From Myotis daubentonii (Eukaryota > Chordata > Mammalia > Chiroptera > Vespertilionidae), in NCBI RefSeq assembly GCF_963259705.1, contig NC_081842.1, positions 61,144,787-61,208,786 of the forward strand: a stretch of 64,000 nt of DNA, read 5' to 3'. Positions 4,401-59,300 of this stretch are shown one piece after another. Position 1 is the stretch's first letter; each line of letters starts with the position of its first letter. The notes beneath the pieces are model-generated. The model ran no database searches and was not told the DNA's origin. It saw only the letters and a program-made list of their open reading frames with translations. A program made the translations under genes and the position numbers.

Positions 4401-5345
4401 AAGTAGATTTAAGTTTTTATCTTAATTAATTAGCTTGGTTAATCATCATAATTAACTGTTCAAAAAAATCCATGCCATTCTCTCACTTTTAATCCTATAT
4501 TTACATTTACAAATTGCAAATAATTTTAACTGATTAATAAATTACCTGAGAGCCAATACTTGGGTTGCCCTTTAGGAATGTTCAGAATTTATCCATTTTT
4601 AACATTAGGTTCCTTTGTATTTTGTGTATAATCAGAGAACAGTGTCTGTGTTGTGCATTTATCACAATCAAAACGGGAGGAGTAGCTGGTCAGAATAGGC
4701 ATGGCACTAGTCCTGTGTTCTACTTAGATTATCATTGCCCATAGGCATTTTTACATTGCTCTGGTTGGCTGTTTAATGCAGTAGAATTATTGAGAGTTAA
4801 TGCTCTGAGAATCAACAGTAGGCTTTGGTATGGTATATGACTATTTATAAATGGTAATTTTAAAGTGCTCAAGATTCAATCATAACATTTAGCTCCAGGT
4901 TGAAATTTGATATTTAATGGCAGAAGTCTATTCTAGGACATGTAAAGGAAAATTGCCTCTATCATTTTTGAGTTATCCAAATGCAAATTTATTTTGAATA
5001 ATTCTTTATTTAAGTACTCATTTGCATTTGTTCAATATCACTGAGACTTCCTTTTTGAAAAACTTAATTTTTTCTGTTAATTTCTTCTATGGATTAGTAT
5101 TTGTGATGAGAGTTTGTTTCAATTTAAGAAAATGTGTTGCTGCACAGGTGAGGTAGTATTTGAATCACTTGAAAGTTCATGTCAGTGTTTTGATTCCTTT
5201 CAATTTTTTCTTTTTCTTTTCTTTCTTTCAATTATTTATTTATTTGCTTTGTTCTGTTTTGTTTTATTTATTTACTTCTGTTTTTAGTTATTACAGGGGT
5301 GTTTTGGGCTCTTCATGGCCTTGCTAACATACTTGGCTGGCCATA

Positions 5346-5535
5346 TTTAGTCTGCGTACTAATTGTTAGTTGGCCCAGTTGAGTCTTACTTTGTGCTCTC
5401 AGTTTTTTTAGTCTTGTTTTCTACTTTCGTCCACCTAGTTGTGTTTTAGTTCATGAGAGATTTCTATTCTGATGGGCCGGATTTTAGTCCGTGTACTAAA
5501 TTTTAGTCTGCAGACTAAAAGTAATCCGCGGATTA
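5346..5535. repeat. Cluster of four short palindromes
   Basis: Three hairpin-like motifs of the form TTTAGTCYGNNNACTAAA lie at 5347-5362, 5483-5500 and 5501-5520. The last is a perfect 20-bp palindrome (TTTTAGTCTGCAGACTAAAA). A perfect 14-bp palindrome (TAATCCGCGGATTA) follows at 5522-5535. Three of the four are contiguous. A 12-base string complementary to part of the last palindrome occurs at 6085-6096. No transposon family is recognised. Confidence 0.75.
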
Positions 5536-5969
5536 TTTATTTTTGCAAAATATTTAATTCGCCCACTGGAAACTATCCTAAAAGAATGTTAAATTCTCTT
5601 AGAATAGCCAAGGGAATTCACAGCTACTGGTGAGTTCTGCCATTGTTTGTTCTCAATACCTAGACATAATAGACCCTACCACCTCCCTTGCATATTTGGC
5701 TCCTTTGTGCCTAGGTGTTGGTGTACATTATTATGCATGTCACCTATAACTGTGACTGTCCCTTAGTTGTATTGTTTATTGTATATATTTTTGTTTAGCT
5801 TTTGGTGGGTGAATTGGGCATATTTGCAGATGGAACTGTGTTGAATTTGTAGTGCTCAAAGATGTAGGATTTTTTTTCCAGTGAGTTTTTCCAAAAAGGA
5901 AAGAATGTTATATATTTATTTTTCCTAAGTAATGGGTGCAAGGGTATGAGGGGGCAAAGCCCACAATAG

Positions 5970-6060
5970 AAAATGTAAGTTTATACCCGCACTCCTGAGG
6001 TGATAATGTCTATTCCTGAAGAGTCCTAAGATAATGAGAATGTCAGCAAATATCTTTTAG
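5970..6060 (-). other. Inverted intronic copy of GSK3B exon 8b
   Basis: Read on the minus strand, 6025 to 5987 is a 39-nt segment with the same length as exon 8b. It is bounded by an AG (6027-6026) and a GT (5986-5985), like the exon. The last 13 exon bases plus the donor GTA form a perfect 16-nt complement (5984-5999 against exon 8b 6726-6741). The rest matches with a few substitutions and compensating single-base indels. Similarity continues weakly about 15-25 nt beyond the exon on both sides. Within the pre-mRNA this arm can pair with exon 8b across a loop of about 0.65 kb. Whether it acts this way is inference. Confidence 0.85.
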
Positions 6061-6699
6061 CAGGGAAGTCAATCCAAAATGGAGAATAATCCGCGGTGGC
6101 CTGATCCTTCTTAGCTCACACAAATTGGAAATATTTGGCTTGAAATCTATAGTAATACAAATTAAATATATTACTTCCCATCACTAATAATTTAGCAAGA
6201 AAAATGTTTATACTGTATAACTGGAATATGTTAATAGAGGAAAATTAGCATATTGGGAACATATCTTTAAAAGCAGTCTTAAATGCCCCCTCCCAGCCAT
6301 GTCAATGGATGATGAATCCAGGTCATAGAAGACCAAACACTTTACTTTGGGAACGTTACTTCTAGATTTCATTTTGATTTTAACTTTTTTTGGTTTTGTA
6401 TTTTTTTAATAAATGCACTGGCATTGGAACATAATATAAATTAAAATGTTTCTTTACTGTGCCTCACCATTGCGCAATCAAAAAAATTTTTTTGCATACA
6501 CTGTGGTGAAATAATTTTTAAAACTTGGACTTGCTACTGTGGAGACTGATGTTTAAAGTTTATAACTGTATAAACATTTTCTATGTCCCCCCCACACCAT
6601 GGATTTCTTATAACATTGGATATATTTTTCCTTGCTGGACTATTCTCTTTTGGATTGACTTCCCCTGTTTGGATTATTTCACTGCATTATCATCTTTAG

Positions 6700-6738
6700 G
6701 ATTCATCAGGAACAGGACATTTCAACTCAGGAGTGCGG
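6700..6738 (+). CDS. GSK3B: GSK3B alternative exon 8b (neuronal insert)
   Basis: The exon is 39 nt, phase 0 at both ends, and encodes DSSGTGHFNSGVR. The known mammalian insert of the GSK3B splice variant enriched in neurons is DSSGTGHFTSGVR, placed after Lys303 in the kinase C-lobe, so one Thr is Asn here. The acceptor is 'catctttag' after a pyrimidine-rich tract, and the donor is 'gtatgt'. Inclusion adds 13 residues between exon 8 (outside the window) and exon 9, and is known to change substrate preference, for example toward microtubule proteins. A UGC lies about 15 nt upstream of the acceptor, as is common for SRRM4-dependent neural exons. The exon is complementary to an intronic inverted copy at 5987-6025. 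The identification rests on exact length, phase, position before exon 9 and near identity of the peptide. Confidence 0.93.
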
Positions 6739-8411
6739 GTATGTACTTAATTTTTTTTTCCCAAAATTTCAGGGCAGGTTTATAAAACTAGGGGGAAAAC
6801 TTTTTGAAAGGCTAAACAATTATTCATTCTTGGAATGTAACAGTAAAAACAATGTAGGTAGCTCTGATTTCTGTTCATTCACTGTATGATACAGGTTTTG
6901 CTTATGGTATAGATTGTCAGTCTTCTGAGTGATTTATTGACATCTAGACTAAAGTTTAGGAATTAGGGGGGTTGAAAATTGTTTTTATAAGAATAAATAT
7001 TGACGAAGGTCCATGGAACCAAAGGTTCTGAATGTTAAGCAATTGAAATAAGTGAAGAATGAAGCAGAAACTTCTTTATTAAAAGTCAGATTTCAGTAGT
7101 TACTGGTGTCCTTTCCTTTAGACACAAAGATAATTCAGAAGAGTTGTTTTCTAGTTTAGACTGCAATTTTTAGAAGTTGCTTGCTACCACACCCTATATT
7201 ACAGTTAAAAATCTGAACTTTAGGAGACACTGGTTTTTGACCTCACATAAATGTCTACTTAACCTTTATAAGGTAATGAACCAAAGGTTTTCTCATCAGG
7301 AATCTTTCAAAGGGCTTTAAGTAATAATGGATAGTTTTTTAAAAGGCAGGTTAAGTCTTGATTTTAATGTAGGTTCTTGGAATTAATGCCTTTATTTTTT
7401 TAAAATCTGATTCCATGAGTTAGGATTCCCTGGCAAAGTAGGCTAATATGTGTCTTAGTGCTAACATGGATGGTCCTGTATAGCCTGTAAGTTACCGGAA
7501 AGATGTGGATGGCTCTTTTTTAATAATCGGAGAAAAGGTTACAATAGTGATTTATTAATAGCTTTACAAAATCTTCATTAACAAAACAGGAAATTTTTTA
7601 AAATACACTCACTGTCCAGCTACCCGACATTTGAATGTTAGCAGGAGATACTTATTTCTACTTTTAATTCTACTTATCTGCCTCCCATATTGGTGCAGAA
7701 GCATTTTTTATTATACTAGCTAGCAAAATAAATCCATATGCTGTCAAATAAGTATAAACTGTACTAGGATAAATTATGTCAGTAGTGCTTAATATTTTTA
7801 TTAAAAATTTTCCTACTGACTATTTTCTTTGACATGTTAGTTTGAGTATGGTCCTGGCTGGGAGCACATGAGGGGAAAATGACCAAGAACAGTAGAAAAT
7901 CTAAACGTTTCAAATAATACAGTAACTTTGGGTTTTCTTGACTGAGGCAAGTCAGGTCACTCAAAAGAAAAAAGGATGAAGCAGGTTGTTTTTTACCTTA
8001 CAGAGGGTTTTCTAACACAGCCAAATAAATAAATTACCAAGGCCTTCAATTTTCTAAAATAAGTCCATGAGATCCTGCTTAAATCAGTTTCTCAGTTTCC
8101 ATGGAAAATATATTCATCAATAATAAACTTTTTGTAAAACGAGAAAAAAAAAGGTTTACTCTGTACAAAGAACTCTTTTTTTTTTTTTTCAGTCTCTTGA
8201 AATCTAATGAGCCCTGTAATAGTAATTAGTTCTCCTACCTTTAGTCTAAGTGAATGCCCAGAGTTACATGAACCATTCTCATTAGGAAACCTTAGCCTCC
8301 CAGGCTCCTCCATGCCATGTCACAATCTGCATATCCTTTGCTCATTTGTGGGTCTGTTTCCCTCCATTTATACATTTCTGCATTTTTTTTAAATCTTCAT
8401 CTAAGAATACT

Positions 8412-8629
8412 TGTTTCTTTTGTTTTTTAAAGAGAGAGGGCGGAGCAAGAGAGACATTGATGTGACAGAAACACATCAATTGGTTACCTCCTGCACACAT
8501 CCCGACTGGGGCTGATGATTGAGCCTGCAACCCAGTTACGATGCCCTTGACCAGGAATTAAACTCGTGACCCGCTGGCCCGCTGGTGCGAGGACTGATGC
8601 TCCAACCACTGAGCAACATTGGCCAGGGC
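8412..8629 (-). mobile_element. Ves SINE, antisense
   Basis: A poly(T) start is followed by a GA-rich block, the complement of the SINE core and the tRNA-like end 'ggccagggc'. It directly abuts the next Ves copy, whose target duplication begins at 8630. Confidence 0.85.
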
Positions 8630-8644
8630 ACTTCTGCTTCTTTT

Positions 8645-8852
8645 CTTTTTTTAATATATTTTATTACAGAGAAGAAGGGAGAGGGATAGAGAGTTAGAAA
8701 CATCGATGAGAGAGAAACATCAATCAGCTGCCTCTTGCACACCCCCTACTGGGAATGTGCCCGCAACCAAGGTACATGCTCTTGACCTGAATCTCTGGGA
8801 CCCTTGAGTCTACAGGCCAATGCTCTATCCACTGAGCTAAACCGGTTAGGGC
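8645..8852 (-). mobile_element. Ves SINE, antisense, with target duplication
   Basis: This is a complete antisense Ves SINE ending in 'accggttagggc'. The flanking direct repeats 'acttctgcttctttt' (8630 onward and 8854 onward) mark a retroposition event next to the preceding SINE. Confidence 0.9.
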
Positions 8853-10249: not shown

Positions 10250-10522
<273 letters not shown>

Positions 10523-27423: not shown

Positions 27424-27719
27424 CTAGCGGCCTGCTGCACGGATTTGTGCACCAGTGGGGTCCCTTGGCCTGGCCTGCAGAGATCGGGCCAAAACCAGCT
27501 CTCCAACATCCCCCGAGGGGTCCCGGATTGTGAGAGGGTGGTTCTTGGGTGACACGCCGCGGAATCAAGCTCCCTCCTCTCTGGTTCCTGGTGCATCACC
27601 TGAGAACCACAGCTGCCAAGTCACCGCAGCTTGGCAGCTCCTGGGTTGAGTATCTGCCCCCTGGTGGTCATTGATGTCATAGCTACTGATCAGATGGTCG
27701 CTTAGGCTTTATTTATTAA
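27424..27719 (-). mobile_element. Helitron, reverse, array copy 1
   Basis: It begins with the reversed 3' end 'ctagcggcctgctgcac'. It contains one CTCF-like motif (27654-27667, reverse). Its 5' end is replaced by 'tttatttattaa', so it is truncated or altered. Confidence 0.8.
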
Positions 27720-56300: not shown

Positions 56301-59300
56301 ATGGCACCTGGTAGCATGTATTCCTGTCCCCTGCATTCAATACCAACAAGACTCCTCAGAGTCGCCCAGGTTCTCTGGGTCTCCAAGCCCTTGGAAAGCT
56401 GGGGCCACTGCTTAGCAAGAAATGTCAACCCAACCACGTCCCAAGGAGCTCGGGGCTCTCAGGCCTCCCATGGGTTTCTGGAGCCCACTTGTGTGTGCAC
56501 AGTGACTCTGGGGGGCGCTTGGGGGACAGCAGGGACAGCGGGTGGAGGCCTCTCCCAGCTGATCCGTGGGAAAGCTCTGCCCACAGGCCCAGGGAACGTG
56601 TCCCTGAAGGGGCTGCCCATCTGTGATCGCTGGACACGTGCGCTGGAGGCTTCCAGCCCCTTCCCCACAAGCTGTAACCCAGAGTGGCCTGGGCACAAGC
56701 ACACCAAAGCCCGCAGGCAGAACGAAAGCATCCGGTCCCCTGTCTGCAAACGTTCCTCTGCAGGATGCCCATGGGGGCAGCAAGGGCGCTAGGCACCGGA
56801 AGCTGGGGTCACATCACACTGGCGTCTCTGGCTTCCCTCTCCCAAGTTCACGCCCCCCACTTTGCCTAAAACGCCACAAGGGCAATTATAAAGGGGACAA
56901 AGAGTCACAAGGGCACCTGAGGGGAGGGAAGGGCATGACTCTGGTCTGAGATGCCCACCCACCCAGAGCAGAGGGCAGAGGTGCCCTCCACCTGTCCTGC
57001 CCCCCAGAGGGACTGTTGTGCCGGCAGATGGGCTGCAAGCTCCGCTCCCTGTGCCTGCCCACGGCTCACAGGCCACGAGCTGCCCAGGGACCTGTGCGCG
57101 GGCACACACCTGCATGGTGCCCGTGTGCACGCCTGCGCATACACATCCCCGAGGCCCACGCCTGCTGCGCCCCAGCTCGCGGTGCCCGTGCACCCGGCCC
57201 CAAGCCCGCCCGGGCACACCCTGCCACTCACTCTCCTTCCTCATGCCGCTCTCCAGGCACTTGCGCAGGCGGCAGGCCTGGCATTGCCGCCGGGTCTTCT
57301 GGGTGATCTCACAGGTGCCCTTCCGGAAGGGGCACCGCAGCCGAGCGTTGCGTTTCATGGCCCTCCTGTGCGAACAAGGAGCAATACGTGGGCGGCGGGG
57401 AACAGGCCACACCTCCCTCTCCCTGCCCCTTCTGTCCCTAAGGGATACGAGCCACACCTCTGTGGGCCTGCCTTTGCCCTGAGACAGGTCAGGCTCACAG
57501 GAAAGCTGGAGGGGGCTCCTCAATCTTCCCTCGAGGCCCGAGGTGCTGGAGGAGGGCAGCAGGTGGCAGCTTTCCTGTGAAGTTCGGCTGTGCTGGTGTT
57601 TCTGGGGGCCCCGCCCCGCCCCTGCCAGTCTGGGTGCCTCAGCTGCAGGCCCGGCCATGTCTCCACCCCACGCCCATTCCCTTCCCTTCACACCCTCTGG
57701 CCGTGTCACTGGGAACCTAGAGGAGGGCCTTGGCAATGTTTCTGTGGCGGTGGCCTCTTCCCAGATTTCTCCTTCTTGGAAGAGGGAGCCCGTGGAGACC
57801 AGCCCCAGAGGGTGAGACATATAGGAAGCCCTCTCTCTCCTTAGCCCCCACCGCAGATTGGGGGGTGGGGGGCAGGCAATGGCTTCCCCTTTGGAAAGAT
57901 GGCTCCTCCTGATTGGCCTGGTGGAGCGAAGAGGCTCACTGCCCTGTGAGAGTGAGTGTGCCAGGTAGGGGAACGATGGGGTCACAGTTTCTTAGAGACC
58001 CCAGCACAGCCACCCTGTCCCCACAGCCCAGCCATCCGGAACTGCCCACCAAAGACCAGCCAGTGGGGCCTAACTTTATCCCCCATCCCCGCCCTTCACC
58101 GCTGAAGAGAAAGAAACCAATTCCTCCCTGGCCGGCCGCAGGTTCTGGTCCAGCAGAGTGGGAATGAGGCACAGCTGGCGGGAACATGGGCACAGACAGG
58201 AGTGGCTGCCAACGGGCCCTGGGGCTGAGCCCGAGGCTAAGTCACACTCAGGTGGCGGACAGGTCAGGCCAGGGACCAGCTCAGGGAGCAGGTGCGTCAC
58301 AGGCACCACCCCCTTTGGCCTCCCCTGCTGGTCTGGGTAAGAGACCCCTGATCCTGCTCCAGAGCACCCAGAGGGTTAGAGGGGAAGGCGCTCAGGTTTA
58401 GTGCAGGTTTAGTATCCACACGCCGTGGGTCAGATACTGGGCCAGATGTTTCGCAGAGCTTCGCGCATTTAGTTCTCACAACTCTGCAAAACACATGGAG
58501 TCACCTGCCTGGCACGGGTGCAGAAACCAAGTCCAAGTAAATCGCAGGTTCGAGGGGGATCTGGCTGCGACATCCGTCACCCCATCGAGCGCCAGGGTTG
58601 ACTGGGCTGATCTGGCTGGGCGGGTGTCCCCTCCCCCTTCATCGCTCCACAGGCGTCCCTCCCGAAACCACAAGCTGTGTGCTCCATCAAAGACAGTGAC
58701 CCCCCCAGCGGAGAGGATGGCCTTCTGTCAAGGGTGTAGAGTAGCTGCATCCCCTGCCAGGCCCCCAAACACGCTCTCAAAGGTAAATCGCTGCCCGTCC
58801 TCCAGGTAAGTGACAACTGAGCTTTGAATCTGTGGCTGCCTGACACCAGAAGGCAGCAAGCTCTTACCTCTGCGGCGCTGCCTCCTCTGGGGGTCCCAGG
58901 GCAGCCAAGGTGCGGGGAGAGCAGACGACCCCCCCCCCTCCCAACCCCAGGCGGTCTACACCGACAGGGCCAGGTCCGGCTCAGGCGTCCGCCCTCCTCG
59001 GCGGGCCCTGGTGGCCTGTGCCTCGCTCGGGGGTGAGCTCTCCGTGAGCGGCCAGCGCAGGAGCAGCCTGGCGCCCAGGGTGGGAAAGGCTTCCTTGCTC
59101 GGCGAGAGGAAGAGCCGGTCCTTCCTTCCCGCTGCACACTGAGGTCCCTGCCCGCCCCGCACTGCTCTGCCCCGAGCAGGCTGAGCTCAGAGCTCGCGCA
59201 GGATGGCAGCGGAGAACAAGCAGAGGAGCTGAGCTGCTGGTCACACCACAGGTAGCTTTGCGACCTCCAGTACGAGAGGTAACGTGTTTTCCTTATTGGC

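Follow-up and report, generated by a model that had tools for sequence, protein, structure and literature searches.

In work by Clouet d'Orval from 1991, RNA structure was reportedly held to repress a muscle-specific exon, that of beta-tropomyosin. The exon considered here, GSK3B exon 8b of the bat Myotis daubentonii, is similar in being a tissue-specific exon that RNA structure would hold repressed. It differs in that an inverted copy of the entire exon unit would do the masking and in that the repression is predicted only. The hominoid TBXT gene offers a second parallel, as its AluY–AluSx1 pair is a lineage-specific inverted pair within one pre-mRNA from which exon skipping is expected; in mouse TBXT, the addition of inverted pairs flanking an exon reportedly led to skipping (PMC10901737). 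The TBXT pair, however, consists of transposons that sit on either side of the exon and loop it out. At our locus the exon lies within one of the arms, and neither of them is a transposon. Exons Ab and 3 of U2AF1 likewise combine exon duplication with long inverted repeats near alternative exons. When these repeats were mutated splicing was unchanged, and the authors suggest that in vertebrates contacts of this kind may be less accessible (PMC5224494). In U2AF1 the repeats are located ahead of two alternative exons, whereas the pairing described below runs across an exon. On the role of long pre-mRNA hairpins in vertebrates, TBXT and U2AF1 point in different directions (PMC10901737, PMC5224494). 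A human catalogue of paired conserved complementary regions covers intronic sequences that pair at long range in the vicinity of splice sites, with sites inside the stem obstructed (PMC8052449). It requires deep conservation and leaves out exons except for 10 nt at their borders, whereas here the exon lies in the stem and the arrangement is known from one genome. Because exons are left out, stems between an exon and its inverted copy are missed by the design of the catalogue, whose main text does not mention GSK3. Among the papers listed in our literature searches, at most 20 per search, no title or abstract opening concerned an inverted copy of GSK3B exon 8b.

The window analyzed is a stretch of 64,000 nucleotides on a 220-Mb contig, in a genome of 2.13 Gb in 121 contigs. 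GSK3B lies on its + strand, with the end of exon 8 about 2.1 kb upstream of the window start. Exon 9 was placed by tblastn with a human GSK3B protein query. Translation and a check of the borders found the reading frame and splice borders of exon 8b intact. The peptide DSSGTGHFTSGVR is present in all 20 complete exon 8b cassettes that were read, from snakes and birds to mammals, and the residue at codon 9 is Thr in each of them (20 complete cassettes among the best 120 of 1352 protein matches, with P0020 and P0058 left out). Judged from these cassettes, exon 8b is old. The window itself encodes Asn at codon 9, a variant for which there was no match of 100% over the query stretch among the best 120 of 191 matches, in a protein search whose clustering at 90% hides cluster members. 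In human and mouse the isoform with exon 8b is reported to be a form of the central nervous system; its reported level peaks in heart and brain in the goat, and in testis and fetal liver in the pig (PMC3391277, PMC4198110). The peaks in different tissues in pig and goat mean that the tissue pattern varies among mammals.

Upstream of exon 8b, intron 8 contains an inverted copy of the exon together with its flanks (Table 1). A first-pass annotation of this DNA had drawn attention to the exon and to an antisense segment of equal length that keeps AG and GT at its ends, and all of this was borne out. It had also reported similarity beyond both splice sites, which by our alignment covers 63 nt on the upstream side of the exon and 16 nt on its downstream side. 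Self-BLAST aligned the arm with the 118-bp exon unit over 126 columns at 78.6% identity (E 9e-14). A perfect core over the 3′ end of the exon and the donor, previously given as 16 nt, measures 17 nt, and a second perfect core of the same length, which had been missed, lies upstream of the acceptor. The TTGAC within this second core is a candidate branch site. On the exon side up to 6754, 101 of 118 bases form Watson–Crick pairs with the arm and 4 form G–U pairs; the rest are 8 mismatches and 5 bases without a partner, and the alignment has 11 gaps. For the exon alone, the earlier estimate of about 34 of 39 pairing bases with a G–U pair included was close; the alignment gives 34 Watson–Crick pairs and 1 G–U pair, with 1 base unmatched and 3 mismatches. 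The equal lengths of exon and antisense copy conceal one deleted and one inserted base.

Table 1. Features of the GSK3B exon 8b locus, in window coordinates
Feature	Position	Strand	Description
Arm	5970..6092	-	Inverted copy of the exon 8b unit in intron 8; self-BLAST against 6637-6754
Antisense copy of exon 8b	5987..6025	-	39 nt; AG and GT kept at ends
Spacer	6093..6636	.	544 nt; loop of the predicted hairpin; interval between the BLAST arms
Exon 8b unit	6637..6754	+	Candidate branch-site region, acceptor, exon and donor; partner of the arm; self-BLAST, alignment
Upstream core	6648..6664	+	Perfect 17 nt about 40 nt upstream of the acceptor, with TTGAC; partner 6063-6079
GSK3B exon 8b	6700..6738	+	39 nt; translates as DSSGTGHFNSGVR; borders AG and GT
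Second base of codon 9	6725..6725	+	A here (Asn); C in human, goat and arm (Thr)
Downstream core	6726..6742	+	Perfect 17 nt over the exon 3′ end and donor; partner 5983-5999
GSK3B exon 9	10277..10462	+	Coding match, start 10277; tblastn

The two segments are close together, single-copy and opposite in orientation, with a long alignment and defined ends, as in a local inverted duplication. In 264,000 bases of joined sequence there are 24 inverted BLAST matches of at least 40 nt and at most 3 kb apart, this pair included, and we counted the matches of each arm by median depth. The arm and the exon unit are the only such pair of at least 100 nt in which both arms are otherwise unmatched. Other inverted pairs include one of 173 nt at 71%, each arm of which has 2 to 3 matches, along with a 55-nt and a 48-nt pair whose arms match nothing or only each other. 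A genome search returned this locus only, in counts that are lower bounds; 63 query bases were not matched even to themselves. Neither the 264 kb nor the genome search placed both arms in a dispersed repeat family, and an inverted transposon pair was rejected on these grounds. Searches of other sequence collections found no mammalian counterpart in genome contigs; the one match, 19 bases in a viral contig, is unrelated. An assembly artefact is unlikely, as 12 of the 113 sites aligned between the arms differ, in addition to the gaps. We do not favor a larger duplication with decayed ends, for 50-nt stretches taken from beyond the arms had scores no higher than their shuffled counterparts; lenient alignment scoring does stretch the match further, at low identity. 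The geometry, in which an entire exon unit lies opposite an inverted copy of itself, is unusual; the likely origin is ordinary.

Folding against shuffled controls, a check that had been suggested for this locus, clearly separated the arm from its controls. The duplex of arm and exon unit was predicted at -128.6 kcal/mol, compared to -43.6 ± 5.3 kcal/mol (lowest -61.5) for 150 dinucleotide-shuffled arms. Chance complementarity was rejected, given the E value of the match and an energy far below that of every shuffled arm. In a context of 861 nt, the unpaired probability of the donor was 0.12, against a mean of 0.49 for 24 shuffled arms. In a context of 1501 nt with 11 shuffles, the probability of exon–arm pairing was 0.88, against 0.002. 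The unpaired probabilities in this larger context were 0.03 against 0.50 for the branch region, 0.21 against 0.56 for the acceptor, 0.12 against 0.35 for exon 8b, and 0.12 against 0.35 for the donor. These splice signals are thus predicted to be paired beyond the control level, in single-strand folding that ignores proteins and kinetics.

We take exon 8b as the source and the arm as the copy because the Thr cassette in all complete cassettes marks the exon as old. The flanks were copied along with the exon, and the arm is therefore an inverted duplication of the exon unit. The direction of the later changes was read from published primers, from which 34 nt of exon 8b were recovered. The goat letters come from a primer table (PMC4198110) and the human letters from primers in PMC4676129, labelled h, and in PMC4226675, which we took as human. 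Over these 34 nt, the exon of the window differs from the primer-derived letters at 2 sites; the arm also differs at 2 sites, and it carries a single deletion and a single insertion. Codon 9 is AAC in the window's exon and ACC in human, goat and the arm, and by parsimony the change from Thr to Asn would have come after the duplication. At the second difference between exon and human, the human sequence, the exon and the arm each carry another letter.

The divergence of the arm is 0.127 (16 mismatches in 126 BLAST columns), and the median for HeliBat-like sequences of the same region is 0.129 (27 pairs among 16 ends). The repeats in the window resemble vesper-bat elements that we take to be Ves SINEs and HeliBat; the spread of the latter is dated to about 30 to 36 million years ago. 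The arm is probably of bat-lineage age, an estimate that depends on these repeat names and dates and on divergence within one genome rather than between species. It would be up to about twice as old if selection held the exon side still. The alignment of the arms is also rich in gaps, with 9 gap openings to the 16 mismatches. Among 507 control repeat pairs of comparable size and divergence, which are not independent of one another, 2 reach such a ratio. Error-prone copying at the birth of the arm could account for the gaps. Few substitutions together with many gaps make the substitution clock doubtful.

This doubt leaves some room for an old paired element, common to mammals and selected, with a regulatory role for exon 8b: the arm may be older than its substitutions indicate, and the stem takes in all splicing signals. 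Against such an element, the changes between the arms are uncoordinated. Paired stem-keeping changes, which mark conserved complementary regions, were sought and not found in tests limited to small numbers and one genome: neither of the two exon differences from the primer-derived human letters is matched in the arm, and a hand count over 6637-6754 divided the transitions across the duplex into 4 that keep a wobble pair and 4 that break it. Such an even split, small as the numbers are, is as expected for drift. The Asn change at codon 9 broke a pair with the arm, at a modeled cost of 6.7 kcal/mol, and the gaps fall in the exon copy too, where a pairing constraint would resist them. As read from these changes there is no sign of selection for pairing. 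We regard a conserved element as very improbable, and of the masking switch put forward in the first-pass annotation the masking is retained as a prediction, with branch-site region, acceptor, exon and donor all paired, while a selected switch is not supported. The proposal that the arm keeps exon 8b out of most tissues is not supported either, given the same uncoordinated changes and lost pair and a divergence that fits a bat-lineage age. Other mammals already regulate exon 8b by tissue, which would not call for this arm unless they carry it too, and an arm confined to one lineage would therefore not be the general cause.

The same tallies are in keeping with an inert relic, whose hairpin would seldom form in vivo, with proteins coating the nascent RNA and exon 8b unaffected; the intact frame and splice borders of the exon agree with this as well. 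Because mutating the U2AF1 repeats had no effect on splicing (PMC5224494), we keep this possibility at about one third. It sits poorly with the very high predicted stability, the short loop and the coverage of every splice signal. That a lone inverted duplication should overlap a whole exon unit by chance also has a small a priori probability, although one judged afterwards. The duplex could instead be a substrate for editing. GRIA2 pre-mRNA undergoes ADAR editing with an intronic editing complementary sequence, and the arm might serve as such a sequence for adenosines of exon 8b or of its splice sites. A long exon–intron duplex is indeed predicted, and A-to-I sites are abundant in human paired regions (PMC8052449). 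Particular adenosines show no sign of selection, however, and we regard this explanation as very improbable.

Our preferred reading, which we consider to have an even chance of being right, is that the upstream inverted copy of the 118-bp unit is likely a bat-lineage inverted duplication, predicted to pair in the pre-mRNA, that likely lowers inclusion of exon 8b. As had been pointed out, the arm is made before the exon in the nascent RNA, lying 544 nt upstream. It would emerge first and then capture the branch-site region, acceptor, exon and donor as each is transcribed; with this order of transcription, masking of exon 8b and reduced inclusion are likely. If leaky, the mask would still allow exon 8b to be used where helicases or neuronal RNA-binding proteins open the hairpin. 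The uncoordinated changes suggest that the arm persists through tolerated drift and would not be a tuned switch. A bolder and distinctly doubtful extension treats the arm as an "anti-exon" of the bat lineage, which zips up a conserved neuronal exon, lowers the long GSK3-beta isoform and relaxes the constraint on 13 residues. Relaxed constraint on the 13-residue insert is hinted at by the one Thr-to-Asn change at an otherwise invariant residue. If the hairpin works, one local inverted duplication turns down a conserved neuronal exon and leaves both the exon and any splicing factor untouched. Bats with and without the arm would then provide a natural experiment on long pre-mRNA hairpins in vertebrates.

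Several further features were observed in and near the window. A single TGCATG, which we take to be an Rbfox-type motif, lies at 5734-5739. It falls outside the hairpin, about 960 nt before exon 8b, and is the only + strand copy in 4701-8700. In intron 8, about 1.1 kb before the first base of the window (bases 198881-198988 of the joined 264 kb), a stretch with an in-frame stop resembles the 35-residue cassette that sits between exons 8 and 9 of the Myotis lucifugus isoform P0051. Weaker matches elsewhere in the 264 kb suggest that this stretch may be a repeat-derived exon. The sequence at 58546-58861 is 7SK-like (Rfam RF00100, 98.4 bits) and is probably a retrocopy. An Rfam mir-9223 match of 75.8 bits at 27537-27611 adjoins repeat-rich sequence.
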